From: Tetradesmus obliquus
Taxonomy: Eukaryota; Chlorophyta; Chlorophyceae; Sphaeropleales; Scenedesmaceae
Reading direction: 5' to 3'
Assembly: GCA_030272155.1 (NCBI GenBank)
Contig: CP126203.1
Location: 2,356,001-2,420,000 of the forward strand
Length of the DNA stretch: 64,000 nucleotides
In this document: piece after piece, positions 32,032 to 62,795 of the stretch
How positions within the stretch are numbered: position 1 is the stretch's first letter
How the letters are laid out: each line of letters opens with the position of its first letter
Made by a program: the position numbers and the translations under genes
The notes under the pieces: generated by a model
The model's database searches: none
What the model was told of the DNA's origin: nothing
Seen by the model: the letters and a program-made list of their open reading frames with translations, nothing else

Positions 32032-32135
32032 CTGTGACGGTGTCCAGCGGCCTGTCTGCGCTGCTGGCAGACATTCTGGCTGAGGACCCTGAGCTAGCTC
32101 AGCAGGTCAGCTCAGCCAGCCTCACACGCATGTGA
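24826..32135 (+). CDS. CEP295: CEP295/Ana1-like centriole protein with a very long repeat-rich C-terminal region
   Basis: Four exons with closing phases: 24826-25535, 25797-27078, 27243-27587, 27801-32135; 2,223 residues. The N-terminal 600 residues are coiled coil and resemble the conserved part of animal CEP295 in order: RLQRLLQVRSQDRQLA; LLQEQYEAALAGIASAQREA; after the first intron a region with RKAADRGVSAQMLL; and LRKWQQQRRKAQARKAFEQD, matching the basic/FED stretch that closes the conserved block. CEP295 and fly Ana1 act in centriole-to-centrosome conversion and centriole elongation. The last exon (1,445 codons) is Ala/Ser/Gln/Gly-rich, probably disordered, with polyQ tracts and eight copies of an LPSTL-type motif. 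The end reads LAEDPELAQQVSSASLTRM. Its divergent neighbour is IFT54, which fits a ciliary role. The family call rests on my memory of the animal proteins; the exon model is solid. Confidence 0.7.
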
Positions 32136-32680
32136 GCATGTACAAGCGAGCTGGATATACAATGACAGGGAAGGCAGTATGTGTTGCGCACTGTGTGTAT
32201 GCGGTTGTGTGGCTATGGCTGAGGATCCTGAGCTAGCTCAGCAGGTCAGCTCAGCCAGCCTCACACGCATGTGAGCATGATGTACAACAAGGCCTCTGAT
32301 GTTGGCCCTATGGCAACAGTAGCCCCGCACTGTCCAGAGCTGGTATGATAGCTCAATCTACAACGGCAAGGGAGGGTTTTATTTGTTGCGCATTGTGTAT
32401 ATGCTGTTGTGTGGCTATGGCTGAGGATCTGAGCTGGCTCAGCGGGTCAGCTCATCCAGCTTCACACGCATGTGAGCATGTACAAGCAGGCCACCACTGA
32501 TGTTGGCCCTGTGGCAACAGTAGCCTGCCCTGTCCAGAGCTGGTATGATAGCTCAATTCACAATGGCAAGGGAGGTTTTTTATGTTGCGCAGTGTGTATA
32601 TGCTGTTGTGTGGCTATGGCTGAGGATCTGAGCTGGCTCAGCAGGTCAGCTCATCCAGCCTCACACGCTTGTGAGGCGGT
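32080..32680 (+). repeat. Four tandem copies of the CEP295-like gene's coding terminus
   Basis: GCTGAGGACCCTGAGCTAGC, the start of the last 18 codons, lies at about 32080 in the gene. Copies follow at about 32217, 32420 and 32617, each running through a CACACGC(A/T)TGTGAG end and into shared 3' flanking sequence (TGTTGTGTGGCTATGGCTGA before each later copy). Spacing is about 137, 203 and 197 bp. Copies 3 and 4 carry a one-base deletion (GGATCTGAG). They probably lie in the 3' UTR. Confidence 0.9.
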
Positions 32681-32753
32681 GATCACGAGTTGTGCGTTAC
32701 ATGACGTATTATGCAGCCCAACGCTGGCAATGGCATGCTGACTAGCATGTACA

Positions 32754-32758
32754 TGTAA
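32754..32758 (+). terminator. TGTAA polyadenylation signal candidate
   Basis: TGTAA is the usual green-algal poly(A) signal. This is the first good one after the CEP295-like stop and lies beyond all four terminal repeats, so they would be transcribed. Confidence 0.45.
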
Positions 32759-33998: not shown

Positions 33999-34217
33999 TT
34001 ACAGCAGCTTGGGCGCAGTCTGGTACGCCTTGCAGCCGTAGCACTTAGGGAAGAAGCCGAATGTGTTGTTCAGCTTCACCAGGTTGAGCACTGCCATTGA
34101 GGAGGTGCAGGCGCACAGCACAACGCCGTATAAAGCCAGTGCAATGTCGAGTGCATAGATAGTCCTCCAGCCCACAACCTTGAACAGGGTCCTGCAGGGG
34201 CCAAGAAGGCGAGGGGT

Positions 34218-34262
<45 letters not shown>

Positions 34263-37200
34263 TCAGTCTTGATTGAAGTTCGATGTTGAGTGCGTGGATT
34301 GTCCTCCAGCCCACAACCTTGAAGAGGGTCCTGCAGATACACACGAGCGCAGCGCAGCGGCAGCAGGATAAGCCTGGATTAAAGTGCAATGTTGAGTGCA
34401 TGGATTGTCCTCCAGCCCACAAGGGTCCTGCAGATACACACGAGCGCAGCGCAGCGGCAGCAGGATCCGGATTTCAAACTTCTTTTGCATGCCCTGTTCA
34501 CTGATGCGCTCAGCGCAGCTACAGTAACTGCCCTGTGTCAGATGCACGTTTAAGATGTAGCGACAGCTTGGACCAGGGGCGGAAACGCTGCAGCTCACCT
34601 GGCCACCAGATGCAGGAGCAGCAAGTGCAACATCTGCTGAATGAATGAATGAGCTACGCGTGGTGTGTCAATACTCGCCACTCGCGTAAGTCAACGGAGG
34701 GTGTGTGACGATGAGGAAACCCCATGCGCCTTCACACCTCGTACCATACATCTGCTGCGTCATGTGCTCATCAATGCCGCAGCAGCACTTTCACTTGAAT
34801 GTGATGATGCTGCTGCTCACCTGGCCAGCTGGTACGGGCACTTGTCACGGTTCTACCGGTCAACGGTCAACTCGGCCTCAACTCAGGTCAGCCGAGCTGA
34901 GTTGCGTTCACAGCTCACCTGGCCAGCTGGTAGCGGCACTTGTCACGGTTCTACTGGTCAACGTCAACTCAGCCTCAACTCAAGTCAGCCGAGCTGAGTT
35001 GAGTTCGCAGCTCACCTGGCCAGCTGGTAAGGGCACTTGTCACGGTTCTACTGGTCAACGGTCAACCAGCCTCAACTCAGGTCAGCCGAGCTGAGTTGCG
35101 TTCACAGCTCACCTGGCCAGCTGGTAGGGGCACTTGGCATGGTTCTACTGGTCAACGGTCAACCAGCCTCAACTCAGGTCAGCCGAGCTGAGTTGCGTTC
35201 ACAGCTCACCTGGCCAGCTGGTAGGGGCACTTGTCACGGTTCTCCTGGTGGCGGTAGTGCATCGTGAATGCAATGCACGGCATCGTGTAGTACATTAGGG
35301 GGGAGGTCAGCCCAGTCATCAGCGTGTTGATGGCCGAGTAGAATGGGAAGCACACAGCAAACAGGTAGACGGCGAGCACTGCAGCAGCAGCAGCAGCAGC
35401 AGGAACGGCAGGCACGGCAGCAGCAGCAGCAGCAAAGACAAGGCAATGAGTGAGTTGAAACGCTGTAGGAAGGAAAGCACACAGCAGACAGGTACACTGC
35501 CAGCTCTGTTGCAGCAGTGCCAGGACAGGGGCCGGAAGACGCATAAGAAGACGCACAAGAAGTTTGTCACTCAGCAGGTTGAACCGGGTTCAAACCAGCA
35601 TGCGTTTGGCACGAATGTACTGGACAGCATACCTGGCGAGGTAGAAGTTTGATGACATGCATGCTGAAGGTGCTGGCTAGGTTTGGTTTGGCAAGTTGGC
35701 TCAAGTTAGAGAAGCTGCATCACATCGTGGTGCACACAGCATGTTCCTGGCTTGCAGCAGTTATTTTAAAAGGGGCACTAGTGAAAAAGCAGACCAATGA
35801 TGCTAGCAGGAACTGTTGATCACTCACGGTATGGCAGGCGTGAGGTGAGCCGTATCCACAGCGCCTTCTCATGCGTGCCCACCATCTTCTCCCACATGAA
35901 GCCAAAGGCTGCAGGAACAGGCACAAAATGAACAAAACAAAAGGCAGCAGGCGGGGTTCAAAGCGGTCAGCATCAGAGTGTGCGTGCCCACCATCTTCTC
36001 CCACATGAAGCCAAAGGCTGCAGGAAACAATGCCAAAAACAAAAAATGCAGGCGGGCAGAGGCGCAGCAACGCAGTTGCATTCAAAACAGCCGTGATGCA
36101 TCAGCTTGAGAAGCGCATGACAGCGAGTCAACTACCTTGAGGGTTCCTGCTGTCACGCCACGCATACGCAACATTGCATGCATGCCCCAACACATGCTGA
36201 GTCGAGCTGTCTACATGGTGAGCTGAACGTATTGCAGCAACAAGAATGAACGCTGGCATTGTCCCTGTGTGCCCACCTGTCATCCACAGCACCCAGGCCT
36301 GCACATTGTGCTGCAGCAGGAAAAGGAAGCAACAGCAGCAGAAAATTTGTTGAACAAGAGTGATGAGTTGTGCACCTTCTATTTACATACGCAAGCTGCC
36401 AGTATTATAGACTGGCAGGAGCATGTGCATTTCCTAAAGGCAGCGTCAAATGCCACGGTACTTCCACAAGTGTGCAATCAACGGTTTGAAGTAACACTGT
36501 TGTGTGCTGCTGCACTTTTGTGCTGCTGCACTGCACAACAGCCACACAGCAGTCTGCTTGCCCAGAAGTAACACTTTGAAGTAACACTTTGAAGTAACAC
36601 TTTGAAGTAACACTTTTGTGTGCTGCTGTACTGCTGGGCGCCTCACCAGGATCATGAGCCACACAGCAGCCTGCTTTCTTCTTGTGCTGCAGTTGCCTCT
36701 CAACACTCACTAGGATCATCTGTCAGACTGCAAGACACTTGCTGTTCCCGGTAACAACTCACCAGGATCATCGAACCACATGCAATGCATGACATCAAAC
36801 AGCCACACAGCTCGCAGCATCCTCAGGATGTGAGTCACAGAAGCTTGCTGTTCCATGCAGCAACTCACCAGGATCATGAGCCACACAGCAGTCTGCTTGC
36901 CCAGAGACAGAGGTGCCAGCTGGAACCTGCATGCACCGCATGAATGAATGAATGAGCTACGCGTGGTGTGTTTACCCTTAACACCCGCGTAAGTCAAGGA
37001 AGGGGACGTGTCAGCACCGCACAGCAGAATGTAACCTCTCTGTCGACAACACAGCACACATGACACGTACTGCTTCAGCGCATGCTGCCGCTTTGATGAC
37101 CCTTCCTTTGTCGGCAATCGGCCGGCGGCAATTTAATTCTAAGGCAATAAACCTGCCCCGAAGGATAATGTGTCCATCACCAGCACAGTCATGGTTGCCC

Positions 37201-37451
37201 AAAGCGGCAACAGTGCTAACTGCAGAGTCGCTGCATTGGCTTTGTGCATAATGGCAGTTGCCCAAAACTGGTCAATGGCTAAAGCACACCATCGAATGGA
37301 CACCCAAGCGCTCAGTGCAGACAACAGTAGCATGACAAATTTGCGCAGAGGGTGGTGCCAGCCACTCACCAGTTGCCGGCGGTGGCAATGCCCGACTTGG
37401 CAAAGGCCAGGTTGAGCACAATGCCAGGGGGCACCTGCACATGCAACACAT

Positions 37452-37537
<86 letters not shown>

Positions 37538-37846
37538 CAGTGTCACACAGTGTAAAACCTTGGAACGTAAGCGCGCAGACCTGCTCAGCAAACCTTGGCA
37601 AGCTGCGCTGGACAAGTACAGTGCATGCGTGTACATGGCCATGGGGTGACGCGCTGTGGTGTAAGAGGGCAGCTGCTGTACTACAAGAAGACAGTACATC
37701 TCACCACAATCACAGTTACAATATTATTCTATATTTTGCCGCCGCCACTCACGATCATCAGGAAGAGCGGGAAGAAGCCGAGGACGTACGACTTGAAGTA
37801 CTTGCGGGGGTGCTGCATGGCCTCAATCGTCTCACTGAAGACTGCA

Positions 37847-37891
<45 letters not shown>

Positions 37892-39371
37892 CAGCATTAC
37901 CAATACTGTACTGCAATGAAGGCAAGACATATCATGGACAAAGTCTATGAGCGTCTTACTATTCTTTGGTCGCCGTGTGCACACCAGCAGCTGGTGTGTT
38001 CCACATTGCTTGTGTAGAGAAATGGTGGCTGAAGCATTCTTCACTATGTGTGGGCAGCTGCCAGCAGCACAGTACATACGGGAACATCCTGCTGTGGTAG
38101 CAAACAAGAGCTGACAATGCCATATACATTATATAACGGTTACATTGGTTGAATGTGATGCTGGTCAACTGTGCCGCTCACTGTTGTGGTGGTCCAGGAT
38201 GGCAAAGACGATAGCCAGGCCGTTGAAGAAAGTCTGCACGGCAGCAGAGGAAGCAACACCAGACCTTCGGAACTGATGCGGAATGCGACTGACAAGGGCC
38301 ATCTAATGTATAACGGGGCATGGCTGCAGTGCTGTATACAGCAGCACTGTTGCTGCAAAAGCGCTGTTTGACTCGCTGCTTCCGCTCAACTCACTGCAAG
38401 AAAGCAGCCACGGCCCATGAGCGGCCCAACTGCCACCCCAGAGGAATAGTCCTATTAATATTCCTCCTCCTTTGGGCCAATCCAACTTATCTACTCAGCC
38501 AAGTTGAAAGTCCAACAAACAAATATCGGTAGGTTGTTGCTGCTGCCCTGCTATTTTCACCTGGAATGAGCTCATGCCGCCTGCCTCTGGAACCAGCCTG
38601 GCAGCTGGGGCCTCAGAAAAGCCCTTTGTGTGGGCCAGGTAGAGCCCAAACACGCTCGTGTACAGCGTGCCTAGCACGCCAATCTGCATGCAGCCACATA
38701 TGGGCAGGCATGAGCAGGTGGATTGATGGGCTGTAAGTTGTTGTAGGCGGCCAGGTAGATTTCAATTACTCTTGTGCACAGCATGCCTAGCACACCAATC
38801 TGCATGCAGCAATGTGTTTACGCAGGGGCATCAATGATCAGGTGAGGGTTTGGCAGTGGGGTGTGAGCAAAGCCCTTGGTGTGGGCCAGGTAGAGCCCAA
38901 ACACGCTCGTGTACAGCGTGCCTAGCACGCCAATCTGCATGCAACACAGGGGCAGGCATGAGCAGGTGAACAATGGCTGCACGTTGTAGTGGGCGGCCAG
39001 GTAGAGTCCAAACACGCTTGTGTACAGCGTGCCTAGCACGCCAATCTGCATTCACGTGCACACATACATACACACATTGTCAAGTGCCGCTTGCCCAGTG
39101 GGCAAAAACAATGTATGTGCATGCGCAGTATGGTTTGGCGCAATTAGCAGGTGTGTTTTTGTGTGAGATGCGGGAGGGAAGCATTGACCACCACAAATGC
39201 TTTCTGGCAAGCGACCCAAGGGTGACTGAGTTCAAACCTCACTTTGAAAAAAGTTAACAATGTCTGTAACAGGTACTCACCACGAGGATGACACGCATCT
39301 TCCTGAAGGATGGGATGAGGCCAAACGGCAGCAGCGTGGCGCCAAAGATGATCGTGTACGTTCTGCAGGAT

Positions 39372-39437
<66 letters not shown>

Positions 39438-39510
39438 TCTTTAACAGCAGCTTGGCCCCAAAGATGATCGTGTAAGTCCTGCGAGGACGCAGCAGCAGAC
39501 GCAAGACAGT

Positions 39511-39553
<43 letters not shown>

Positions 39554-40591
39554 GCGGCAATGCTGTTTTTGCAGAGTAGTAGGTGGCTATGTAAGTGCCG
39601 AAGGAGCTGTGTGCTGGTGGCTGCGGTCTTTGCCGTTGTTTAGGTGCACAGCCCTTTACAAGCAGGGTGATGACAAGTATCTTGATAGTACAGTGTGTCC
39701 TCCGATCCAAACCTGATGCAGAGTGATGGGCAATTTCATAAGCATGTATGTCTTAAATCCGAGCACCACACACACTCCACACCGTTGCGGCTCACCTCAG
39801 GCTGTGGCTCTGGTCGATGGAGTAGTAGTTGGTGGCACTGGCAAGGATCTGCGCGACACCCACACCAAACCTGCATGCAACAAGCAGCGCCGCGTTGCAG
39901 TTGGGCTGTCCTTAGTTGCAGAGGTGAAGATCATTGGCAAGGGATGCAGCGGTTTTCTGCACAAGATATAGAGGGGTTGCATGGTGTGTTCATGCAGCAT
40001 ACGCCACCACAGACACTTGGTAAATTAGGAAGCTGCAAGCAGCTCAGCTCGGGCTGTCACTCTGAGGTTCAATCCCAATCATCTGCACAGCAATGCATGT
40101 CACATTGCTGTTTGCATGAGTGCAGTGAGCCAAGCAGCTGCAGCATGCAGAGCTAATGAGCATTCGTTAAAGACAGGCAGAGGTCCCCAGTTCAAGACCC
40201 ACTCACCACATGGCAAACATCATGCACAGCACCTGCAAAAAGCAGAACAGGGACGCAACATGGTCATGCCAGTCAGTGCCAGATGCTATGAGGTGAGGGA
40301 TCCCGATTAAAAGCAACAAGCTGCTGATGCTGCAGCACCGCACAGAGACAACTAAGCATGTGTGGGTTGGGCTGGTGATTCCACTCTGAATTTGAATGTG
40401 GTCGAACACTAAGCATGTGGTCGAACGGCAATCATAATCAGGCCCTGGCTCAGGTGAATGCAGTGCACTGGCACCACGTTGCTGTTTCGAGGTTCAAGTG
40501 CCCGGCCAGCAGCAGCGGCATCTACACCAGAAAAGTACCAGGTGCTTTTTCAGCATGCGTGCTGTACAACATGTGCAGTGTATGAGCTCCT

Positions 40592-40627
<36 letters not shown>

Positions 40628-40726
40628 CCCACCAGCTTGCCGCCTACTGGCCCCAGGTAGTAGCCCAGCAGCTCCTGCATCTGTGTCTTGTGCTTGCGCA
40701 TGTGAGGCCTGCAGAGCAGCAGGAAC

Positions 40727-40768
<42 letters not shown>

Positions 40769-41042
40769 GAGGGGGAGGGTGAGCAGGGTGGGAGCGTTGG
40801 TTGCGCACATAACGTGTGCAAGCGCAAATGCGAAGCACACTTGCCAGGCGGGCAGTACAGCTAGAAGGACCTGTGTGCAAACGGAAGGACAGCACGTGTA
40901 ACAGGGTGCCGCTGCTACTGCTGCTGCCGCTGCTGTTGCTGTTGTTGCGGCTGCAGTTGTCATCACTTACTTGTCCGGGTCATCGAACCACTTGCCCTGC
41001 TCAATGAGCTGCTTCTTGCGGTCATAGTACATCGCCTGGGTG

Positions 41043-41073
<31 letters not shown>

Positions 41074-41427
41074 CGGCAGCAGCAAGGGTGGCAGCAGCAA
41101 TGGCAGCACAGCAAGGATAGGAGTGTCAGGCACATCCTCACGGAAGCGGTGGTGCTACCACTTTTGAATGTGCCACGTGCATCATAAACCGCAGCAGCAG
41201 CAGCAGCAACAGCAGCAATGCTGGTGCGTTCGTTGTGCCACGACTGTCAACAGACCGCCAGTGGTGTGCAGTGCCGTGCCCCGATCCTCCAGAGCTCACC
41301 TTGAGCTGCCAGATGGTGTAGAAGCCGATGATTGTGCCCCACAAAATGATAAGGGCACCAGGGATGAGGCCTGTCTTGTGCCAGGCATTGGGAGTGGTCA
41401 TCATCACCTGCAGGCAAAAACCAGCAG

Positions 41428-41466
<39 letters not shown>

Positions 41467-41470
41467 CAGT

Positions 41471-41508
<38 letters not shown>

Positions 41509-41515
41509 TAGCAGT

Positions 41516-41550
<35 letters not shown>

Positions 41551-42403
41551 CAGCAGCAGCAGCAGTAGCAGCAGCAGCAACATCAGCAGTCTTTCGTGCT
41601 GGCAATGGCTTGCAGGCCGCTGGGGTATGCTGTGTTCAATCTCAACATCACCTGGCAGCAAACCAAGAACATAGTTTGTTTGCACAGCAAAAAGGCAGGC
41701 GTTATCAAACACTTGTTGCTGTCACAGCAGCCGGGCTGCAGCACTGTACTATAGCACCACATTGACCCCATGCAGTGCTGCCAGCCGCACCTGGCCGATG
41801 CAGCCAGCAGCCAGCAGCCATGCATCAAAAAAGGTGTGGCCCTCCGTGCCCAGCCTGACCACAAAGTGGCCCCAGCTTTCTCCGCTGCCCCTGCTCCAGT
41901 CAGGGTACTGCCTGATCTCTGCATTGTTCCTGTTCAGCAGCAGGTCTGCAACAGCGAGAAAGATAAAATAAAAACTAAAATGGTTATACAGGTGAGATTG
42001 TGCTTAGGTCGGGAACTGCCCGCGCACGCACATGGCTTACTGGGAACGGCGGTTCTCCGCTGTGACCTAAAAAACGTCTTGTCGATCGTTTGATGCCATT
42101 CTAGTATTCAATGGTATAAGATGACAAACAATCAAGTTGCGTTGGTTGGAAAGCCGGCGCTATTGTGGCATGTCTGGAACCAACAGCCCTATCCTTAAGG
42201 CTGCTGCTTTCTTCATCTACAAAGGCCGCAGACGATCATGCACCAGAGTAATTTATCAACGTCAAATGATAAAATAGTCGTGGGGCATTCTTACCCATGT
42301 CCATGTCTACTGCTTCAATCCTTTGCACTGCACCCCAGCTGGCATCCTTGGTGCTGCCACTGTCGCTGATGGCGACATCGAGATCAGCGTCTTTCAAAGC
42401 CAT
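33999..42403 (-). CDS. AUX1/LAX-type auxin/amino-acid permease (paralogue A)
   Basis: Seventeen exons, 519 residues: complement(33999-34191, 35210-35378, 35828-35908, 36277-36310, 36869-36926, 37370-37434, 37753-37841, 38182-38233, 38561-38683, 39281-39362, 39796-39870, 40207-40232, 40633-40708, 40971-41035, 41300-41407, 41791-41945, 42295-42403). AUX1/LAX proteins are 10-11-helix proton symporters of the AAAP family that import auxin in plants. Family marks: TYTIIFGATLLPFGLIPSFR (plants: TWTYIFGA..IPSF); AMQHPRKYFKSYVLGFFPLF; AVWLMIL then HNVQAWVLWM and AFGFMWEKMVGTH (plants: FVWEKVIGMH); LFAVCFPFYSAINTLMTGL (plants: IFPFFGPINS); and the C-terminal VGWRT..NTFGFFPKCYGCKA (plants: FGLFAKCYQC). 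The substrate in an alga is unknown; other amphipathic amino-acid-like acids are possible. Introns carry (CTG)n at acceptors and many exon-edge echoes. Confidence 0.88.
34277..34465 (-). repeat. Two echoes of the acceptor and 5' end of the last permease exon
   Basis: The true acceptor and first about 60 coding bases (34130-34197) recur at 34281-34343 and 34390-34438, each with CTGCAG followed by a GGACCCTCTTCAAGG-like start (the second copy is shortened). The copies themselves share a CACGAGCGCAGCGCAGCGGC tail. Confidence 0.85.
34814..35224 (-). repeat. Five-copy 97-bp array built on a 5' splice site
   Basis: GCTCACCTGGCCAGCTGGTA starts at 34814, 34913, 35010, 35107 and 35204. The copy at 35204 is the real end of the exon encoding CPYQLA plus its GTGAGC donor. 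The other four repeat this donor, about 30 coding bases, and the following intron with its GAGTTGAGGCTGA-type sequence. Units are nearly identical, so the array is young. Confidence 0.93.
35984..36026 (-). repeat. Echo of the FGFMWEKMVGTH exon start (paralogue A)
   Basis: The acceptor CTGCAG and first 30 coding bases of exon 35828-35908 recur about 109 bp upstream in the gene's direction, followed by an unrelated ACTCTGATGCTGACC tail without a donor. Confidence 0.85.
36524..36800 (-). repeat. Echoes of the LMIL exon end (paralogue A)
   Basis: Parts of exon 36869-36926 with its GTGAGT donor (plus-strand CACCAGGATCATGAGCCACA) recur near 36646-36670 and 36764-36782. A piece of its middle (CAGCCACACAGCAGTCTGCT) lies near 36540. 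GAAGTAACACTTT also repeats four times at 36567-36613. Confidence 0.75.
37452..37534. repeat. (CAG)27 tract in a permease intron
   Basis: Pure CAG on the + strand, that is CTG on the transcribed sense strand, just upstream of the acceptor at 37435. Confidence 0.97.
38742..39053 (-). repeat. Three extra copies of a membrane-segment exon start (paralogue A)
   Basis: The exon used in the model starts at 38683 with IGVLGTLYTSVFGLYLAHTK. Upstream copies start at about 38934 and 39050 (both open, same frame, IGVLGTLYTSVFGLYLA intact) and about 38798 (decayed). Each has its own TGCAG acceptor. Only the 38683 copy has the downstream part and a GTGAAA donor. Confidence 0.9.
39374..39435. repeat. (CAG)20 tract in a permease intron
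   Basis: Pure CAG on the + strand directly upstream, in the gene's sense, of the acceptor at 39363. An echo of the following exon's start lies beyond it at 39448-39487. Confidence 0.95.
39448..39487 (-). repeat. Echo of the TYTIIFGA exon start (paralogue A)
   Basis: Plus-strand CCAAAGATGATCGTGTAAGT at about 39459 copies CCAAAGATGATCGTGTACGT of the real exon (39341-39360). Its acceptor has decayed to CGCAGG. Confidence 0.75.
41427..41580. repeat. Long imperfect CAG/TAG tract in a permease intron
   Basis: About 150 bases of CAG with scattered TAG interruptions next to the acceptor at 41408. Confidence 0.95.
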
Positions 42404-42601
42404 TGTTGTTTGTAGATTTACGTACCAGAATTATTTTGATCTAATGGCTTGATGAGCTGGTGGAGGGTTGGAGAGAGGTTGCTGCGGAGGCGGACCCTTG
42501 AATGCGCGTACTTGCAGTATCGTCAACCAGACGATCACCGGCAAGCGTCTGAACTGATATGATAATACCTTTTATGTGGCAAGCAAGCAAACTGGCTGCT
42601 G

Positions 42602-44752: not shown

Positions 44753-47097
44753 TCAGAGCAGCTTGGGTACTGCTGGCAGATACGCCTTGCAGCCGTAGCA
44801 CTCAGGAAAAAACCCAAACGTGTTGCTCAGCTTCACCAGGTTTAGGATAGCCATGGAGGATGTGCAAGCGCACAGCACGATGCCATACAGAGCCAGGGCA
44901 ATGTCAAGCAGCATGATGGTCCTCCAGCCCACAACCTTGAAGATGGTCCTGCGGAGATGCAGCAGCAGCAGCAGCAGCAGCCAGCTGAGCAAAGTGGCAT
45001 AAGATGGCTGCAGTGCAGTGCTTGACATTGCTTGGACTCCAAACAGATGCTGTTGCATGTACATGACAACTATTGCCTCAGCCTGCACAATGTGGTCTTC
45101 CACGCCTGAGCAAGGCACAGGAACTTCAAACCCTGCTGTGTCAGAACAGCCTCATGTTTGTCCTCAACCGAGCTCAGCTCAGCTCAGCCACAACGAGTTG
45201 AGCTCGCAGCTCACCTTGCTAGCTGGTAGGGGCACTTGTCGCGGTTTTCTTGGTGGCGGTAGTGAATCAAGAAGGTAATGCATGGGATGGTGTAGTAGAT
45301 GAGAGGGGAGGTCAGCCCAGTCATCAGGGAGTTGATTGCGGAGTAGAAGGGGAAGCAGATCGCAAACAGGTAGACGGCGAGCACTGCAGCAGCAGCAGCA
45401 GCAGCAGTAGCAGCAGCAGTGCCGTCAGGTTAAGAGCGGTGCCGCCTTCACTGCAGACTGGTGTTAACATTCTTGCATCATGCCACACACACATGATGGC
45501 CGTCTGTGTCTTGCCTGCTGTACATGCTACCGATGTTTCAGGGGACGCTGACATGACGGTGCTATGCTTAATACTTAGGGCGGTTTGTGTGTTGTGCTTG
45601 CCCCATATCAGGCAGTGTTGCCAGTGCTTGTTGTAAAGTGGCCGGGCTCCAAAGAACAAACAGAAGTCAGCGGGCATTAGCCAACAGGCAGCAGGCAACA
45701 GGCAGCAAAGCTAGGCACTCACGGTAGGGCAGGCGGGAGGTGAGCCGTATCCACAGTGCCTTCTCGTGCGTGCCTACCATCTTCTCCCACATGAAGCCAA
45801 AGGCTGCAGGAACAGGCGAAAAACGAAACATGAGGCAGCAGACGGGATGCAAAGCGGTCAGCATCAGAGTGTGCGTGCCCACCATCTTCTCCCACATGAA
45901 GCCAAAGGCTGCAGGAAAACAATTACAGGCAGTCATGAAAGAAACATGAGGCAGCAGGCGGGGTGCAAAGCGGTCAGCATCACAGTGTGAGTGCCCACCA
46001 TCTTCTCCCACATGCCGCTACAAAATTAGCAGGAGCACGGTAATAGCGCAGCTGCAGCGCGGTTGCAATCAGGACAGCCATATTGCATGATGCAGCCAGT
46101 CACAAATGCAAGAAGAGCAAGGCAGTCAGCCACAAATTTCCCCGTGCTGCCCTGTGGCGCTGCTGCCGTACATGTTTGCAATACCCCACAGTCTACCAGC
46201 TACCGCTCCCAACTTGCAGAGCTATACAGTCAGCAGTTTCAGGAACCATGATGCCATGAACAGCATTGTCACTGTCCCTATGTGCCCACCTGTCATCCAC
46301 AGCACCCAGGCTTGCACGTTGTGCTGCAGCAGCAAAACGGAGCAACAGCAGCAGCAGGCAGATATGAATCACAAGTGAGGCTGTGTGCAAAGCACGTGCT
46401 GTGGCATGTCGCTGCAGCTGCTGTGCAGCAATGCCTTGGGAGCTGTAATTTCACCGGTAGGAAACTAACATTGGCAGATGCATCAAGCAAGAAAGGTAGC
46501 TGCAGGTGTGCACCAAACTCCAAGCACGCCATGCATTTGTGCTGCAGTTGTCCCTCAAAAAATCGCTGGGATCATCTGCCAGGCTGCAAGCAGATAGATA
46601 CTTGCTGCTCCCTGTCACAACTCACCAGAGTCACCAGCTGCATGCAATACACGACATCAAACAGCCACCCAGCTTGCAGCAGTCTCAAAAAACTTGCTGT
46701 TGCCTGTCACCACTCACCAAGATCATCAGCCACACTGCAATCTTCTTGGGCACGGACAGCGGGGCCAGCTGGAACCTGCATGCACAGCAGCACATCGCCA
46801 AGTTTTTTTGGCAGCAGGTTTCAGACTGGCTACGCAAGTTTATCAGCGCTGCTCCACGATCAATGCTGCTTGAATAAGCGTACTTGAGTGCCGGCTGACC
46901 AGCTGCCACCAGCGTGCTATTCTAGATGCATGTGATACTCAGCAGCAGCACCACATGCATGCAGTGGAGTGACAACTCCGCGCAGAATACTGTGATTATT
47001 GTGCCAGCCACTCACCAGTTGCCGGCGGTGGCAATGCCCGATTTGGCAAAGGCCAGGTTGAGCACAATGCCGGGAGGCACCTGCACAGGCAACACAT

Positions 47098-47128
<31 letters not shown>

Positions 47129-47492
47129 GCGGCAGCATGGTGGTTGAGTGGCAGGTTTGATGAAGCCAGCAGGAACTGGAGCTTGCGCCCTGTGCCCCGT
47201 CAGCCTTGCTTGAGCAGATGCAACGCAGGGCTTGCTGCTGCTTTTCTTAAGCCTGCAGGATTCTGGCAGAAGGGCCCTGCATGCTGTTGTTCACAGTAAT
47301 CAAAAAGAGTGATAACACATAAAAGTGCTGCACCAGATGCAGAAGCCAGCAGTTGTGGCTGCTAAATGCAGTACAATCAGCGTTTTGAAGATAACTCACG
47401 ATCATGAAGAAGAGCGGGAAGAAGCCCAGCACGTACGACTTGAAGTACTTGCGGGGGTGCTGCATGGCCTCAATCGTCTCGCCAAAGACTGC

Positions 47493-47531
<39 letters not shown>

Positions 47532-50500
47532 TGGCGGTAGCACAGTGCTTGCTCGCAGATCAACGCTGGCCTGCAGCGGACAGCAGTAAGTGCTGACTGC
47601 AGTACTTTCAGCTGTGACAGCACTAGACGCCAGCTCATGCAACACATGTGCATCATGTGGTTTTCAAAGCAGGTATGTGCAGCATTCATTGAGGCACATA
47701 TAACCGACACTCACTGTTGTGGTGGTCCAGGATTGCGAAGATGATGGCCATGCCATTAGAAAAGGTCTGGAAGGCAATCATACACAACATAGAATACTGC
47801 GCATTGTAGAACTGTAGTGTGCCACTCACTGTTGTGATGGTCCAGGATGGCAAAGATGATGGCCATGCCATTGAAGAAGGTTTGGAAGGACTGCACCCCG
47901 CTAGGCTCTGGGAGCAGCTTGGCTGATGGAGCTTCTGCAAAGCCCTTGTGCGCGGCCAGGTAGAGCCCAAACATGCTCGTGTACAGCGTGCCTAGCACGC
48001 CAATCTGCAAACAGCAACATGTGTACACAAGGGCAGAAAGGGGCAGGTGAGGGTTAGGCGCTGAGTGTTGGACAAAGCCCTTGTGGGCGGCAAGGTAGAG
48101 CCCAAACATGCTCGTGTACAGCGTGCCTAGTACACCAATCTGCATGTGCGCAAACGTATGGGCAGGAGCAGGTAGGGGCTCGTAACTGAAGCGTGCTTGA
48201 TCATACCCCAGGAGGGTGGAGTCAAGCACTGGAGCAAGATACGATCAGCGCTTTTGAAATAGGTTTGGGGGAGGTCTAGCTGTCGAGCAATTGGCATGAC
48301 GCTGCGTCAATGATGTCAACTAGGAACCAGCTGGCTTGCTGAGTTACCACGTGACAACTTAAGTAGTGTGATTGTTATGTGACGCAAATGCAACAGTTAC
48401 TTACCACAAGGATCAGCCGCATCTTCCTGAAGGATGGGATGAGGCCGAAGGGCAGCAGCGTGGCGCCAAAAATGATCGTGTACGTCCTGCAGGATTGGCA
48501 GCAGCAACACACAGATGGCAGCAGCAGCAGCAGCAGCAGCACTGTTTGCACACACGAGGTTGCAATGAAGCCACTGCTACGTCGACAGGCAGCACCGCTG
48601 CAAACACAGCGGGAAAAGGGCAGCAGCAGAGCTGGAAAGACTGAGGGTGAGTTGTGTGCTGCAGGCGGTGGCCTTGGATGATTAAAGCAGCAGCGCTGTG
48701 CTCAGCACGTTTGCCTAGTAAAGTTATGACATTTTGCAGGCTGCGTACCTCAGGCTGTGAATCAGCTAGATGGTGTAGTAATTGGTGGATGATGTTCAGA
48801 TGGACCGGGCTTAGAACGACAATCCTGGCTGCAAATCCTCAACAATGAAAGTCACTATCCTGCTCCCACCTCAGGCTGTGGCTTTGGTCAATGGAGTAGT
48901 AGTTGGTGGAGGAAGCCAGGATCTGCGCAACACCTAGCCCAAACCTGCATGCACATGTGCAGCATGCAGGACAGACCAGGAGAGGGAGCAGCAACACACA
49001 GTCCTGTCAGCAGCCCGAGCAGCTACAGAATGCTTTGCCTGCCTGCACGCTCTGCTGACAGCAGGGTATACTGCTGATTTTGTTGTGCTTGTCCATGTGC
49101 AGCACACAAGGAAGAGGAAGAGCATCACTTCAGTCAGCTGCCTGAATGGCTGCAGATTGCTTTGCTGCTTGCATGGGCTGCTGGCAGCAGGTCAATCATG
49201 TTTAAGTCAGAGTGCAGCAGCGTGTGTGAGCGCAGCGCCGCTCTTGCTGCAAGCAAACAAACAGCCATGCTCACCAGGAGAAGAACATCATGCACATGAC
49301 GACCTTGCCTCCTGTTGGTCCGAGGTAAAAGCCAAGCAGCTCCTGCATCTGCGTCTTGTGCTTGCGCATGTGGGGCCTGCGGGCAGAGACCAACAAGCAT
49401 AGCAATTGGTGCTTTTCAAGTGCCAGCAGTAAGTACTACTCATATGTCCTTCTGGATGGAATGCATGGGAGCAGGGCAATGACCATGGCACGCCATGCTT
49501 GCAGCCAACAGCATGGCAGGTGTACTTTGCATACAAGCAGCAATCAATCCTGCAGCAGAACAGGCTGCGCTCGGCATGTTGTTGCTGCTGCTGCTTCGGG
49601 TGCTGCTGCTGCTGCCTGCCCTGCTCACTTGTCCGGGTCATCAAACCACTTGCCCTGCTCAATGAGCTGCTTCTTGCGATCATAGTACATCGCCTGGGGT
49701 GGCGGTGGCAGCAGCAGCAGCAGCACCAGCAGCAAGGGCAGGAGTGTCAGTAGCAGCCACTTCATCGCCCCAGCTGCATCTTGAAGCAGCTGTCTATGAA
49801 GTGCATATGCATGTCTGCATAGCTGAAAGCCAACATCACTCACGCCCTCTTATTGTTTTGGCCTGTATGACATTGCGCTGGGTTTGTTTGGCCACAGCTG
49901 TTGGACATCTGTTTTCCCGGAAAACTGTGGGCCACGGCTGTTGGCGACCTCTGTTTACCTTGAGCTGCCACATGGTGTAGAAGCCGATGATCGTGCCCCA
50001 CACAATGATAAGGGCACCGGGGATGAGGCCGGTCTTGTGCCAGGCATTGGGTGTGGTCATCATCACCTGCAGGCAACAAGCAACAGCAGCAGCAGCAGCA
50101 GTAGTTGATTAACGCACGTCAAATCCTCTGATCGACAGCTCATAATCTGATGCTGATCTTGACCAATGATTGAGTGCATGCATGCATTGCTGTGAGCCCT
50201 GTGTGGCGCTCACACACAGCTATTGATCACAAACTCTGTGCTGCCAGCTGTAGCAGCAGCAGTTGTATGGCACAACAGCTGTCGTGTTCTACACATAATG
50301 TGTGCAGTGCAGCGCACCTGGCCGATGCAGCCAGCAGCCAGAAGCCAGGCATCGAAAAAGGTGTGGCCCTCTGTGCCAAGCCTGAGCACAAAGTGGCTCC
50401 AGCTCTCGCCGCTGCCCCTGCTCCAGTCAGGGTACTGCCTGATCTCTGCATTGTTCCTGTTCAGCAGCAGGTCTGCAGGAAAGCAGGTAGCAGCACCGCA

Positions 50501-50936
50501 GAGCAGCTACAGGTTTGTGAACAACTGATAATCACGAAGGAAGAAGTGGGCCCTGTTGTGCCTGCTGTGGCAGGAACGGAATGACGGTTCCATGCTAAAG
50601 CCCGAACCTCGCTGCAGCACGGCGGCAGTGCACGCTTGATTTCGACATTAACCAGAGATAAATTAGATAAACTTCAAATGGCATTTTTTGCGCTAGCGTG
50701 CAAACAGAACTTGGAACTGTAATGCCTGTCTCTCGTAATCACCTAGGCCGATCATGAAGAAGGCCGCACAAACAACAGTATGTAAAGATTTCAAATATTA
50801 TCTATCTTCAAGGTGGCTCACCCATGTCCATGTCCACCGCCTCGAGCTTTTGTACATTCTGGTCGTGGGAGTAGTCATCTTTGCTGGCGACGACGTCACT
50901 GATCGCCACGTCCATATCAGCGTCCGGCAAGCCCAT
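44753..50936 (-). CDS. AUX1/LAX-type auxin/amino-acid permease (paralogue B)
   Basis: Fifteen exons, 522 residues: complement(44753-44948, 45215-45383, 45723-45803, 46290-46323, 46718-46775, 47016-47080, 47400-47488, 47830-48004, 48405-48486, 48870-48944, 49275-49376, 49629-49693, 49959-50066, 50318-50472, 50822-50936). Most exon lengths and all phases match paralogue A; two introns of A are absent (A 38182-38233 plus 38561-38683 equals one 175-nt exon here; A 40207-40232 plus 40633-40708 equals one 102-nt exon). The soluble N-terminus (MGLPDADMDVAISDVV) is short and acidic. Family marks are as in A, including HPRKYFKSYVLGFFPLFFMI, AFGFMWEKMVGTHEKALWIR, LFAICFPFYSAINSLMTGL and NTFGFFPECYGCKA before the stop. 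It probably lies in the plasma membrane as a proton-coupled importer; this is inferred from the family, and the substrate is unknown. The gene lies 2.3 kb from A in the same orientation, so the pair is a tandem duplication. Confidence 0.88.
45870..46015 (-). repeat. Two echoes of the FGFMWEKMVGTH exon start (paralogue B)
   Basis: Plus-strand GTGCCCACCATCTTCTCCCA recurs at about 45877 and 45989 beyond the real exon (45723-45803). The first copy keeps the CTGCAG acceptor; the second is cut off before it. Tails (AAAGCGGTCAGCATCA) are shared with the echo in paralogue A, so this duplication is older than the gene duplication or was exchanged by conversion. Confidence 0.88.
47711..47776 (-). repeat. 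Extra copy of the NGMAIIFAILDHHN exon (paralogue B)
   Basis: A second complete exon-like unit with its own acceptor (CTTCCAG) and GTGAGT donor lies 118 bp downstream, in the gene's sense, of the fused exon 47830-48004. It encodes TFSNGMAIIFAILDHHN. Confidence 0.85.
48083..48146 (-). repeat. In-frame echo of the IGVLGTLYTS exon start (paralogue B)
   Basis: An alternative acceptor precedes 48139, exactly 135 bp (45 codons) upstream of the modelled exon start at 48004, with an open frame between. Its use would insert a second IGVLGTLYTSMFGLYLA segment. Confidence 0.85.
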
Positions 50937-51389: not shown

Positions 51390-51478
51390 CCTACAACTTG
51401 CTTACAACCGGCTTACAACCACATGTTGTAAGCCAAGTTGTAAGCACGAGTTGTAAGGACTTACAACATATTGTAAAG
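51390..51478. repeat. TTACAAC motif cluster, left
   Basis: GCTTACAACC-type motifs occur in forward orientation and then inverted (GTTGTAAGC) in an 89-bp patch with dyad character. The same motif cluster is found at 55127-55274. Confidence 0.85.
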
Positions 51479-55066: not shown

Positions 55067-55126
55067 ATGCGATATTATTCAGTGGCACAGCACATCATAT
55101 TCACAAAATTTGTAACACTGTACCAT

Positions 55127-55274
55127 GCTTACAACTTGCTTACAACTGATGTTTACAACATATTTACAAGTCCCACTTTTATACAACCTGCTTACAACTT
55201 TCAGTGTACAACCCGCTTACAACCGGCTTACAACCGGCTTACAACAACGCTTGTGGTTGTAAGCGAGTTGTAAA
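55127..55274. repeat. TTACAAC motif cluster, right
   Basis: About eight CTTACAAC/TTTACAA motifs, including GGCTTACAACC in direct triplicate near 55212-55243, and an inverted copy GGTTGTAAGCG at 55255-55265. Confidence 0.85.
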
Positions 55275-55494
55275 AATCTGTACTGGTGGCAGTGCAAGCC
55301 CGGCAGCTCTGCTGTGGCACACTGTAAATATGGACAGTCTACACTGTCATAGTGTCACGGTGACAGCTGTCAAATGCGTTTGGATCATATGCTCCAAGGA
55401 TATGCTTGCAAGCAGCACTGGGATCGCCACGCCTATGTCACAACGCCCACCTGCAGGACAACCGCCACGACATATTTGTTACACAAGGGAACCA

Positions 55495-58321: not shown

Positions 58322-58368
58322 GCGGCCCACCTGCACGCCCCTGCCCCCAAACATCCTGCATGCTCATG

Positions 58369-58406
<38 letters not shown>

Positions 58407-59860
58407 CGTTGCTGTTGCTGCTGCTGCTGCCGCGGCCCACCTGCCCCCAAACATCCTGCATGCTCATGTGCTGCTGCTGTTGCTGTTGCAGCTGCTGCGG
58501 GTGCTGCTGTTGCTGTAGGTGCATACTGCTGCTGCTGCCGCTGCCCACCTGCACGCCCCTGCCCCCAAACATCCTGTTGCGTTCCGGGTGGAACGAGCCT
58601 ATGATGTCCATGTCAGTGGCGGCATCAGCCTTGCTGGACGTGCCCCTGCAGGCACAAACAACATCACAAAGCTCTACAATATGTCACAAGTTCTGCCTGC
58701 TTGAAAGTGTTAGCTGCACCCAAACATGCCTATGATGTCAGTGTCAGTGGCGGCATCAGCCTTGCTGGACGTGCCCCTGCAGGCAACATCACAAAGCTGT
58801 ACAACATGTCATCAGTTCTGCCTGCTTGACAGTGAGCCGCCGCATCCAAAACATGCCTAAGATGTCCATGTGGCGGCATCAGCCTTGCTGGACGTGTTCC
58901 AGCAGCCGCAAACAACATCACAAAGCAACTATGTCACAAGTTCTGCCTGCTTGTCAGTGAGCTGGCGCATCCAAACATGCCTATGATGTCAGTGTCAGTG
59001 GCGGCATCAGCCTTGCTGGACGTGCCCCTGCAGGCACACCCGCAATAACCACTTCCTTACAAAAGCAAAACCTGACCTCAAAGTAACTTGTTAGGTGGTT
59101 GGTACTTTTCCTCTGGAGGAGTTGCTGCGGCCAACAGCAGCTGTACGTCACTTACTTGGCATATGGCAGGGAGCTGGCAGTGGGAGGCGCGGCTGCTTGT
59201 AGCGCGAAAAGCACGTGACAAGCACTGCTACAGCAACATCCCAACAGCATCCAAGATGCATCAACCTGTTACAACTGCATGCTGTTGCGTTGACTCAAGC
59301 ATAGCACTGTACATCTTGTATCCATCTGATGCAGCATGCCGCACCTGAACACCACAAACACGTTGCCCTTTTCATCCCGCATGCAGACACCTGCACCCAA
59401 AACAGAGGAAGCACATATGCACGCAGGTCAGCACGTAAAACTGCCATTTTACATATCCGCACGCAGGTCAACACGCAATGCACGCATGCACCTGCAGGGC
59501 AGCCGTACCAACCTTCTGTGTCCACTTCGTGCCGTTTGCTGACTGCACTGAGGAAGGTGGCGTTGCTGATGCCGTATGCTTCCGCCCAGGTGGAAAAGGC
59601 AGAGCCCACCTGCAGCGGCAGCAGCAGCAGCAGCAGCAGCAGGCGCAGTGCACAGGCGCTTGTTGAATTGATCCAGGCGGCAGCAGGTGCAATGCTGTTG
59701 CCACATGCTTCGGACTAGGTGGAGAAGGCAGACCCCACCCTGAGGCAGCAGCAGCAGCGGCAGTGCACATGCGCAGTTATTTGGTCCAGGCGGCAGCACG
59801 GTGCAATGCTGATGCCATATGCCTCCGCCCTAGTAAAGAAGGCAGACCCCACCTACGGCC

Positions 59861-59896
<36 letters not shown>

Positions 59897-60801
59897 GCGG
59901 CGGCGGCGGCCGCCTGCTGGGCTCACATAGTTGTGCCTTGCCCCTGTTACTGTGTTGTCCAGCAATGCACTGGGTCTTGTGAGCCAAACAAATGCCTGAT
60001 TTGATTTGATTGCCGTAGCAGCTGTGACTATCTGCACACTGCTACATTGTTATCTGCTGAGTTTGAGCACAGATGTCCTGCAAGCACAGCTTTGTCCTGC
60101 AAGCTCACCAGCGTGTCATTGTCTGGCAGAGCCCATGCGTCAGGGTACACTGCCTTGCTCAGCGCGGCCATGACAAACGCGTTAGCAGCATTGAACTTGC
60201 TGCTCTTGACCAGCAGCTGGTCAAAACTGCACACAGGCTTGGCTTTGATGCCGCAGGCTGCCTCTGGGTTGCTTGCGTTGAAAGGGGCAGCAATGCAGCT
60301 GCCATTGCAGCAGGTGAGGCGGTTGTCGATACCTGACATAAGGGGCAGAGCAGCAGAGCAGCAGGATAGCGTTAGTTGGCTCGAGCTGTCCTGTGCAATG
60401 AAACTTACATGCAGGCCCGTGCAGTGGTTCAGCATCACAAAAGGGCGTGCTGTCACTGGTGCACCAGCAGCATTCTGGCAGCAGCTCAATGGCATGCAGT
60501 GATGGCTGTTTGCAGGCTTTGTTTCAAGCCTTCTGGATGTGGCTGATCTGGTTGTTGAATGGATTTTGCAGAAAACGACGAGTTCCCTAGAACTGCTGCA
60601 GTACAGAGTAGGTGCTGTTCAGCTGCAACATGACACATCAGATGATGGCTGCAGTCACCGGCACTCACATGTATTGCCCCAAGACTGGCAGCAGATGGCG
60701 CCTTCCCTATTGCCGCATGTCCTAGGGTCCTTTTTGGCATGGCTGACACATGACAGGCCCAACAGTAGCACTAGCAGCAGGCTGCCTCCCAGCTGCTGCA
60801 T
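55522..60801 (-). CDS. Secreted class-3 lipase, probably GPI-anchored
   Basis: Exons: complement(55522-55803, 56116-56231, 56584-56620, 56897-56948, 57458-57591, 57831-57986, 58549-58645, 59345-59390, 59513-59609, 60109-60332, about 60409-60474, 60669-60801). All junctions are in phase except the first intron, where the join between 60669 and 60474 would create a stop, so a border or small exon is missed. A signal peptide starts at the ATG (GSLLLVLLLGLSCVSHA), followed by a Cys-rich segment. Lipase marks: VFVVFR GTSSKADAATD (the RGT strand), LHDGFTDAYYYV, the nucleophile elbow LWVSGHSLGAALATLAAADF, LYTLGSPRVGDRDW, VNN NDPVARVPITML with the acidic residue, and YRHIG with the His. So Ser, Asp and His are all present. 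The C-terminus ends in a hydrophobic stretch (GVLGVLIAAAAAAI) with no charged tail, like a GPI signal. Known role of the family: hydrolysis of acylglycerols; here probably at the cell surface or wall. Confidence 0.85.
56318..56345 (-). repeat. Echo of the YRHIG exon start (lipase)
   Basis: The acceptor CTGCAG with GCTATCGGTATATCAGCACT, upstream of the real exon start at 56231 by about 110 bp. The copy has acquired an in-frame stop shortly after. Confidence 0.8.
57240..57400 (-). repeat. Echoes of the GHSLG exon end (lipase)
   Basis: The exon end with donor (plus CACTCACAGCTTCTGCCAGT at 57451) recurs as CACTCACAGCGTCTGCCAAC at about 57358 and, more diverged, near 57265. Confidence 0.7.
58259..58320. 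repeat. (CTG)20 tract in a lipase intron
   Basis: Pure CTG on the + strand; a second shorter run is at 58372-58407. Confidence 0.95.
58325..58468 (-). repeat. Two echoes of the FGGRGVQ exon end (lipase)
   Basis: CCCCTGCCCCCAAACATCCTG of the real exon (about 58555) recurs at about 58340 and, shortened, at about 58444, each preceded by a CCCACCTGC donor-like end. Confidence 0.85.
58731..59034 (-). repeat. Three echoes of the GTSSKADAAT exon start (lipase)
   Basis: Plus-strand GGCGGCATCAGCCTTGCTGG recurs at about 58750, 58872 and 58997 beyond the real one at 58618, at about 122-132-bp spacing. Copies 1 and 3 keep the CTGCAGG acceptor; the middle one has decayed. Confidence 0.93.
59700..59862 (-). 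repeat. Two echoes of the VGSAFSTWAEAYGIS exon start (lipase)
   Basis: Copies at about 59712-59741 and 59811-59855 preserve GAAGGCAGACCCCACC and, in the second, the reading of AEAYGIS. Confidence 0.85.
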
Positions 60802-62436
60802 GGGTTTGCTTCTGCTCCTGCTGCTAATGAGGGTGCTGCTGCAGATGCTGCTGTCACTGTAGTACTACACTGATGCAACAGTGCCTGGGTGACCTGATCG
60901 TGCCTTCCAAACCTTGCTGCTGATATTTCCGGTGTACTGTATTGTTTGTGTGAGCAATGCGTGGCAAGCTCAACCTCTGGCTGGCTAGAGACGTGCTGCC
61001 GGGCTCAGTCACTGCTGACTCTGTTGGGCTGAACAGTTGCGAAGTGACGCTCTACGCCAGCTTCCGACAGCCCAGCATTAAAATACGTTGAGATTTGATC
61101 ACCGATCGAACTGGTGCTATAGCAGAGGATGTTGCAAGCGTGCAGGTTGCGTGAGCGTATCTTAGAGCGACGCTTCGTTCTGCAGGTGTTGACTGCGGTG
61201 CAAATGTAGTACGGACGCACATCAGCCCCATTGTGTGCCCTAGCCACTAGTCGAAGGGTTCAGGGGACTTGTTGGTTGTGGGTAAGCAGCAAGTAAGAAC
61301 TGCCAGGGGTTACACCTCCAACTGTTGTCACGCCAGCACAGCCCCTTAGCACGAAACCCCGCAACATTGCAACAAGAAAGAGACGCATAATACCACAGGC
61401 GGCTTCAGCACCGTTCGGGCTGCAGCTCTCACACACCATGTTCACCAGGAACATGGGTACCCATCAAAGGCTCACTATGTTACACAAGCACAGCTACCAT
61501 TGCACTGTACCTGGCCCAGATGAAAACATTTTGCATCAAATGTCACTCCACTTTCTGTCCCTGCAACCCTGCTGGCTCGACATCAAGAGTATCCGAGCAA
61601 ACATCCACTCTGAGTCAGATCAGCCTGCCCTGACGAGCACCACCTATCTGCCGTATTTATGATCCACTTAGATAAGATACAACCTTGTTTATGACGACTC
61701 TTCTGCGCTGAAGCGAGGGCTGAAGCAGGGCTGAACAAAGGGCAGCAGTAGCTTGAACTCGAGAAGACGAGCCTGGACCCGAGCGGCTGCAGGAGCAGCC
61801 TTGTTGCGCCTTAAACTTGCTGCAGCAGTCCCTTATGGGTGAGTGTCTCTCTTGGCACATAAGCCTGGCTCTGATCAGGAGGTGTGGCCGAGCAGTATTA
61901 ATTGCTGACAGCAAGCAGTAACACCTGTGCAACGCAGCGCTGCTAGGCACGCAGCAATGATGGGCGTGCATGCCATTCACTTGTGAATTCTGGGGAATGC
62001 GCAAATGTTTAGGCATGAATGTCTGCTGTCAGAGGTCAGCACTACTGCAGCATTGTTGCATTAGGACAATTGCTGTACAGCTGCTTGCAAGTGGTGTTAG
62101 GGGAAGCTTCATGCATGTTTATGCCGCCTATTGCAATGATGCAGCTGTGTGACACAGGAGTGCCAAAGCCAGCAATAATATCTTACTTCAGCCAACACCC
62201 TTGCAAGCAGCAGCTTGAGGTGTTAGCATGGCGTGCGCTGCCAGGCTAGTCGCTGTGTGCTGCTGGCGCTACGCCTGCTGATGTACAGCAAGGCGTGCAT
62301 TCAATACAATGAATTTAGTCTTGCATTGCTGTCACCTTGCCTAGCCCTCATGTCACCTCAGCGTACACCTGTGCTTAGGCGTTTACACCTGCAGCTGTGT
62401 TCAACCCTCACATCCCCCTTTGCCCCTGTTTCTTGT
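60802..62436. other. Intergenic; nothing recognised
   Basis: Contains the promoter side of the lipase gene (right side of 60801). Frames on both strands are short and without known domains. Confidence 0.45.
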
Positions 62437-62439
62437 GCC

Positions 62440-62795
62440 CGACATGTCAATCTGTCCGATGTTGTTGCGCATAACGGCAGCACCCAGCCCTGCAAACACC
62501 CTCATCTTGTACGACATCTCCTCTCTCATCCAGCCCTGCTCTTACACTTTTGTGGTTTATGGCAGCCGGGCCCATTACTAACAGGGCGGTGTGCCGCCTG
62601 CCATGCTGCAACACAGACCTGGCAAGACGCCTCATCTTGCATGACACCCCCTCGCCCCATCCAGCCCTGGATCAAAATTGTGTCAAACTGACGGCAGCCG
62701 AACTTGTTGTTACACTGGCTTTGCTGCAATGCAGACATGTCAAGCCCCCTCGTCTTCTATGACATCTCCTCGCCCATCCAGCCCCGCTCCTATGC
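62440..62795 (+). repeat. Echoes of the GST-like gene start
   Basis: The first coding part (CTATGACATCTCCTCGCCCATCCAGCCCCGC, from 62757) has diverged copies at about 62508 (TACGACATCTCCTCTCTCAT) and about 62636 (TTGCATGACACCCCCTCGCC), spaced about 125 bp, with GACATGTCAA preserved before the first copy. Confidence 0.85.

Follow-up and report, generated by a model that had tools for sequence, protein, structure and literature searches.

Recurrent local copies of exon edges in the introns and flanks of Tetradesmus obliquus genes

Why should the ends of exons, complete with their splice sites, be found again a short distance away in the adjacent intron or flank, in one unrelated gene after another? 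The question was raised by a 64-kb stretch of the green alga Tetradesmus obliquus, of the Scenedesmaceae (hereafter the window: positions 2,356,001–2,420,000 of the 5,023,913-base contig CP126203.1, in a genome of 17 contigs and 104.66 Mb), where a first-pass annotation had noted tandem copies of exon edges and gene ends. We found these repeats at the end of a CEP295-like gene (32077–32675), in two permease genes, in a lipase gene (58597–59038, 59564–59853), and upstream of the start of a GST-like gene (62493–62792). Repeats in which exon edges are copied into introns or flanks, the copies being called echoes below, are thus a real and confirmed pattern. Frequent local tandem duplications, combined with tolerance and slower decay at exon edges, provide what we consider, with moderate confidence, their best explanation.

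Local direct repeats and copied exon edges

The first-pass annotation had invoked a local duplication mechanism, and local tandem duplication indeed appears to be genome-wide, recurrent, and turning over. Our sample of 264 kb comprised the window and 20 random 10-kb loci (eight other loci, L001–L008, were left out of the counts), with order-5 Markov shuffles as controls. First, self-comparison of the window after masking of simple repeats gave 44 local direct repeat pairs, against 0, 0, and 1 in three shuffles. Such repeats were present in 18/20 random loci and in none of the shuffles of these loci, and about 12% of the sample lies inside local repeats spaced 40–500 bp. Second, local pairs are direct (254, vs 1 inverted). 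Third, three echo arrays were searched against the whole genome (simple repeats and very frequent words were skipped), and their matches lay nowhere but at the locus itself and, in one case, in the paralogous permease: the CEP295-like array was found at its own locus only, and the permease 1 array at 34815–35152 only there and in permease 2. Introner-like similarity at many unrelated sites was not found in this genome-wide search, which covered the three arrays only. Direct orientation and locus-specific arrays therefore suggest local tandem duplications rather than mobile introns. Arrays abut. In 43 families of two copies, a spacer of some size is unmatched; degraded homology makes up most of it in 17 and part of it in 2, and none was detected in 24 (these spacer counts, like the pair classes, medians, identity classes, and tract tests below, concern only families spaced 60–320 bp).

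The spacing had been described as mostly 95–135 bp, and this fits the larger sample: among 191 families, 37 are spaced below 60 bp, 5 at 60–89 bp, 95 at 90–159 bp, 38 at 160–259 bp, and 16 above. The counts come from an ungapped search over 12–600 bp, because a gapped BLAST histogram probably misses spacings below about 55 bp by merging them with the main diagonal, and in this ungapped search the class below 60 bp is separate from the 90–159 bp mode. Planted two-copy duplications of 60, 80, 100, and 120 bp were recovered about equally, both at 8% divergence per copy (0.90, 0.95, 0.97, and 0.98) and at 15% (0.20, 0.27, 0.22, and 0.23), and the gap below 90 bp therefore does not arise from poor detection.

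Exon edges are over-represented in the copied sequence, as had been claimed. Outside the permeases, exons were labelled by an ab initio gene model that was trained on the sample and used curated splice signals as well as lower limits on exon and intron length; gene models below 300 or 450 coding bases, exons below 30 or 45 bp, and simple-repeat windows were left out. The model recovered the permease exons well and called 33% of bases coding, vs a published fraction of 15.7% for strain UTEX393 (PMC5966456), which implies that many weak predicted exons are probably false. Pfam matches were obtained for 8/8 echo-bearing random-locus gene models tried, chosen from 15 as resembling known families. 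Of 635 edges, donor and acceptor together and with masked windows kept in the total, 97 have a copied exon side within 300 bp and 32 a copied intron side. When 30 exon bases are required to recur within 600 bp (at least 25/30, coding copies included), 50/295 donor, 51/288 acceptor, 9/29 stop, and 4/26 start edges are copied. Noncoding intron-side copies within 300 bp accompany 26 donor and 19 acceptor edges (45/583 junctions). Exons with an echo go from 13/86 in the lowest quarter of coding score per base to 29/87 in the highest; by total coding score, the share of copied exon-edge windows rises unsteadily (0.13, 0.17, 0.20, 0.14). The first-pass annotation had given each unit 25–70 coding bases. 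Coding sequence is indeed copied, but its length is not fixed, the copy rate falling off gradually across the first 100 bp or so of the exon. In a ZIP transporter gene of one random locus (L012:700–1850; Pfam Zip), an intron is taken up for the most part by about seven 140-bp units that copy the end of the exon before it together with the donor site.

The permeases provide a second set of exon edges, supported by more than the ab initio model. The annotated protein of permease 2 (OEZ86_009140; P0001, same assembly) places exactly in 15 exons, with GT-AG introns only, and the spliced product of 523 residues matches a T. obliquus hypothetical protein of 522 residues (100% identity and coverage, the query being one residue longer). 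An echo stands in the adjacent intron at 4/28 exon edges of permease 2 and at 7/32 of permease 1, some of whose edges are approximate. Windows are copied in 10/56 cases at 15 bp into the exon vs 2/41 at 15 bp into the intron. At the threshold used, 2 echo positions are common to both paralogues, 2 occur in permease 2 only, and 5 in permease 1 only; such shared and private positions reveal turnover of echoes. Introns with an echo are about one unit longer (median 441 bp, n=10) than those without (333 bp, n=20; P=0.0002).

Extent and decay of the echoes

Do the duplicated units end at exon edges, near which the first-pass annotation had placed their endpoints? In a set of 45 edges, each with one noncoding intron-side echo within 300 bp, 35 prove on gapped alignment to have homology on the intron side that exceeds the 95% level of the controls. 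The next 30 bases are 0.76 identical exon-ward vs 0.74 intron-ward (gapped, 64 pairs, P=0.43; random 0.58), and between echoes the values are 0.79 and 0.74 (16 pairs). Similarity is equal on both sides of the edge, hence the units span the exon edge and do not end at the splice site. Homology stopping at the splice motif was a feature of ungapped profiles and was removed by gapped alignment. Gaps per base amount to 0.05 in intron parts vs 0.005–0.016 in exon parts, the latter figure being biased low because the echoes were found without gaps. The suggested tie to CTGCAG or (CTG)n was not recovered: a simple tract is present in 20/104 units (0.19) vs 0.20 of random windows, and CTGCAG in 0.40 vs 0.38.

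The substitutions in echoes fit neutral decay. Over 47 edges, exon and noncoding echo differ by 91 synonymous and 89 nonsynonymous changes, a ratio of 0.42 (95% interval 0.31–0.56). A neutral echo beside an exon that accepts synonymous changes only would give 0.5, and for predicted coding copies the nonsynonymous/synonymous ratio is 0.23. The GT and AG of echoes are retained about as well as exon positions. Furthermore, an exon-side copy accompanies 16/32 intron-side repeats, vs an intron-side copy for 20/97 exon-side copies, an asymmetry that unequal decay predicts.

The process might then involve 1) frequent local direct tandem duplications in T. obliquus genes, with a repeat length mostly of 90–160 bp; 2) retention of the inner copy as an echo, within the intron or flank, whenever the unit lies across an exon edge or a coding start or stop, such duplications being tolerated because the reading frame would survive while the outer splice-site copy is used; 3) purifying selection holding the exon copy, while the echo and the intron part would mutate freely and gather many indels; and 4) unequal decay, by which copies of exon edges would outlast intron-only copies as recognisable sequence and the part of a repeat still visible would contract towards the exon edge and its splice motif. 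We infer the break-repair step, as well as the cause of the size preference. The duplications may arise by fill-in of staggered breaks followed by end joining, by analogy with small tandem duplications in mammalian cells (PMC8355091). Fill-in would fit direct, locus-specific units; it would not account for the lower limit of 90 bp.

Preferential birth or preferential survival at exon edges

When 104 families are placed at random, 17.6 edge-noncoding, 10.5 coding-noncoding, and 38.7 noncoding-only families are expected, and 26, 20, and 22 were observed. Survival must contribute to this exon bias, since decay is slower in a pair of which one copy is frozen. Unequal decay, with one copy frozen by purifying selection, thus accounts for part of the edge bias.

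A number of results weigh against duplication, tolerance, and slower decay as the explanation. First, simulations in which duplication was uniform, exons were under purifying selection, and other sequence decayed freely (12 runs, 11 settings) gave ratios of coding-noncoding to noncoding-only families of 0.35–1.25, vs an observed 46/22 = 2.1, and the runs closest to this ratio had older events and lower identity than observed. Second, families without predicted coding sequence number only 3/50 at 90–120 bp (13.8 expected) and 4/45 at 120–160 bp (10.5 expected), whereas there is no bias at 12–60 bp (18/37, 16.5 expected) or 160–260 bp (8/38, 8.5 expected); plain decay does not predict an exon bias confined to 90–160 bp. 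When exons are defined more strictly, the two biased classes contain 4 and 7 exon-free families vs 15.5 and 12.5 expected (P < 0.002 and 0.024), and the 260–600 bp class is borderline (P=0.048). Third, 9/9 permease families (20 pairs, grouped by hand) touch an exon, where 43% of tolerated placements would, with P of about 0.0005 if all copies are equally visible and 0.04 if exon-touching copies are three times as visible. Fourth, 24 of the 43 spacers mentioned above have no detected homology, although by eye one of them (47938) contains degraded homology that falls just short of the threshold. Fifth, no significant shift of the bias with age was seen (at least 95% identity vs less, P=0.27; whole vs partial units, P=0.15). 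Finally, few young events retain both boundaries, no young-event junction is resolved, and the repair mechanism, taken from the literature, would apply by analogy. We also considered, and rejected, a spacing mode independent of exons (median 117.5 bp for noncoding pairs vs 116.5 bp), which was reversed for 90–160 bp by classing whole spans.

An alternative is that exon-intron and coding-flank boundaries are the preferred origin of a distinct 90–160 bp duplication process, e.g., through phased nucleosomes, transcription, or R-loops, which we regard as possible but doubtful. With the same reserve, a process of this size might be separate from the tandem repeats of other sizes, continually lengthening introns and supplying real splice-site copies. 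Of the classes of 12–60, 90–120, 120–160, and 160–260 bp, only the middle two are short of exon-free families; at 90–95% identity, 13/16 pairs combine a coding-containing with a noncoding copy, and 1/16 is noncoding only; and the nine permease families all touch an exon. Yet the 12 pairs with at least 95% identity have no deficit of noncoding pairs (5/12, null 0.45), and endpoints are not at the edge, similarity being equal on both sides. In the random loci alone (86 families), the edge-noncoding class is 17 vs 14.6 expected (P=0.28), even though coding-noncoding families are 17 vs 8.9 and noncoding-only ones 19 vs 30.2. The borderline result at 260–600 bp also blurs the size limit, and exon labels outside the permeases come from the ab initio model with its high coding fraction. 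To our knowledge, no mechanism is known for duplication that prefers exon edges, which counts against such an origin as well.

It is unlikely that selection maintains the echoes, whether as spare splice sites, which the first-pass annotation had also envisaged, or as alternative exons. Some echoes retain both splice motifs, and the permease 2 copy at 48073–48144 differs from its exon only synonymously (by eye), but the substitution pattern over the 47 edges is that of neutral echoes, and GT and AG survive at about the rate of exon positions. In tandem exon duplication with mutually exclusive splicing, a whole exon is duplicated and both copies serve; in the one annotated protein of permease 2, just one copy is present per site and the detected echoes are all absent. 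Echoes as relics of introns created when exonic AGGT segments were tandemly duplicated are much less probable still: the mechanism is known (PMC2891723, PMC4974935) and would also place exon copies in introns, but the 35/45 echoes that carry intron sequence past the splice site mean that the intron pre-existed, and echo-bearing introns resemble ordinary introns plus about one unit. An assembly artefact is scarcely credible, for although the copy number of the near-identical array at 52058–53349 could be wrong, the copies of most listed families have diverged by at least 5%, often through indels as well, a kind of difference that misassembly would not produce, and the pattern recurs in 18/20 random loci. 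We retain, with moderate confidence, local duplication with tolerance and slower decay at exon edges as the preferred reading.

Features of the window and known systems

Echoes and their genes in the window
Feature	Positions	Strand	Remarks
CEP295-like coding 3' end and stop codon, original copy	32077..32140	+	Repeat family; open frame 27735-32135
Three echoes of the CEP295-like gene end, downstream of the stop	32216-32279, 32418-32487, 32617-32675	+	98%, 92%, 92% identity
Permease 1 gene, tandem paralogue of permease 2	33999..42404	-	Exons by homology, some edges approximate
Two echoes, acceptor edge of permease 1 last exon (33999-34191)	34277..34466	-	
Four echoes 97-98 bp apart, donor edge of permease 1 exon 35210-35378	34815..35152	-	
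Weaker echo, acceptor edge of permease 1 exon 35210-35378	35466..35504	-	
Echo, acceptor edge of permease 1 exon 35828-35908	35981..36026	-	46/46 identical; common to permease 2
Echoes, donor edge of permease 1 exon 36869-36926	36540..36780	-	
Three echoes of permease 1 exon ending ~38683 (IGVLGTLYTS)	38749..39054	-	
Echo, acceptor edge of permease 1 exon 39281-39362	39445..39487	-	
Permease 2 gene, 15 exons, OEZ86_009140 (Aa_trans)	44753..50936	-	Annotated protein placed exactly; Pfam
Two echoes, acceptor edge of permease 2 exon 45723-45803	45871..46014	-	
Echo, donor edge of permease 2 exon 47830-48004	47708..47774	-	
Echo, acceptor edge of permease 2 exon 47830-48004	48073..48144	-	
Echo, donor edge of permease 2 exon 48870-48944	48749..48788	-	
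Three echoes, acceptor edge of lipase exon (predicted edge 58645; copy 58597-58656)	58728..59038	-	
Echoes, acceptor edge of lipase exon (predicted edge 59609)	59649..59853	-	Lipase repeats span 59564-59853
Echo upstream of GST-like start region (62741-62792)	62493..62544	+	GST domains found

The joined lipase exons match Lipase_3 in Pfam. The CEP295-like frame (27735–32135) has no Pfam match, its name being that of the first-pass annotation. In the region 38234–38569, permease 1 apparently has an intron splitting an exon that is continuous in permease 2 (47830–48004), which would be a case of intron gain or loss between tandem paralogues. A polypyrimidine tract is the usual feature before an acceptor; in permease 2 (introns within 44949–50821) acceptors end in TGCAG in 11/14 introns, some of them preceded by long CTG tracts. 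A segment of some 78 bp at 40000–40078 matches at least 39 further places in the genome at 88–97% identity and ends in GGTTCAATCCC, which resembles a tRNA B box; we presume that the element may be a tRNA-derived short interspersed nuclear element. Between genes, a 431-bp unit is present three times with about 99% identity at 52058–53349, an array far younger than most arrays here, and, at 51395–51465 and 55120–55275, the motif CTTACAAC occurs in clusters with its complement GTTGTAAG, in repeated and partly inverted arrangement.

No named system of this kind was known to the first-pass annotation. Parts of it are in fact known (PMC3887541, PMC4974935); what holds is that no report of genome-wide exon-edge copies was found in the open-licence literature (titles and abstract openings), most subscription papers lying outside it. 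A survey of plants and green algae describes tandem repeats of Chlamydomonas and Volvox that are enriched near intron-exon junctions, with units up to 50 bp (PMC3887541). As in T. obliquus, these green-algal repeats are concentrated in introns and near exon junctions, but the survey stopped at 50-bp units and does not appear to ask about exon sequence within them, whereas the T. obliquus units are mostly 90–160 bp. In the RdRp gene of potato, an intron-exon boundary is crossed by a tandem duplication, as happens here, and an intron of that gene has an 83-bp tandem duplication too (PMC4974935); this concerns one gene in which a new intron was made, whereas T. obliquus has many affected junctions, most of which give no hint of intron creation. 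For Drosophila, tandem duplication has likewise been proposed as a source of new introns (PMC2891723). Such intron creation shares with T. obliquus a local tandem duplication that carries exon sequence and splice sites into an intron; it duplicates exonic sequence, whereas most T. obliquus units span an existing exon-intron boundary. As for the repair step, fill-in by CST and Pol alpha-primase at 3' overhangs, followed by joining, is a known source of small tandem duplications (PMC8355091). These are direct and short, as in T. obliquus, and their size is said to depend on the break ends, but the human insertions described are below 100 bp, whereas those of T. obliquus are of 90–160 bp and exon-linked, and a role of these enzymes in the alga would be by analogy.

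If about 1/13 of junctions (noncoding copies, 45/583) to 1/6 (any copy, 101/583) are copied, T. obliquus would provide many natural experiments on duplicated splice sites. These bear on the lengthening of introns, on the competition between splice sites, and on the birth of introns by duplication from such intermediates. An exon-tied unit of 90–160 bp, if true, would link a mutation process to gene structure.

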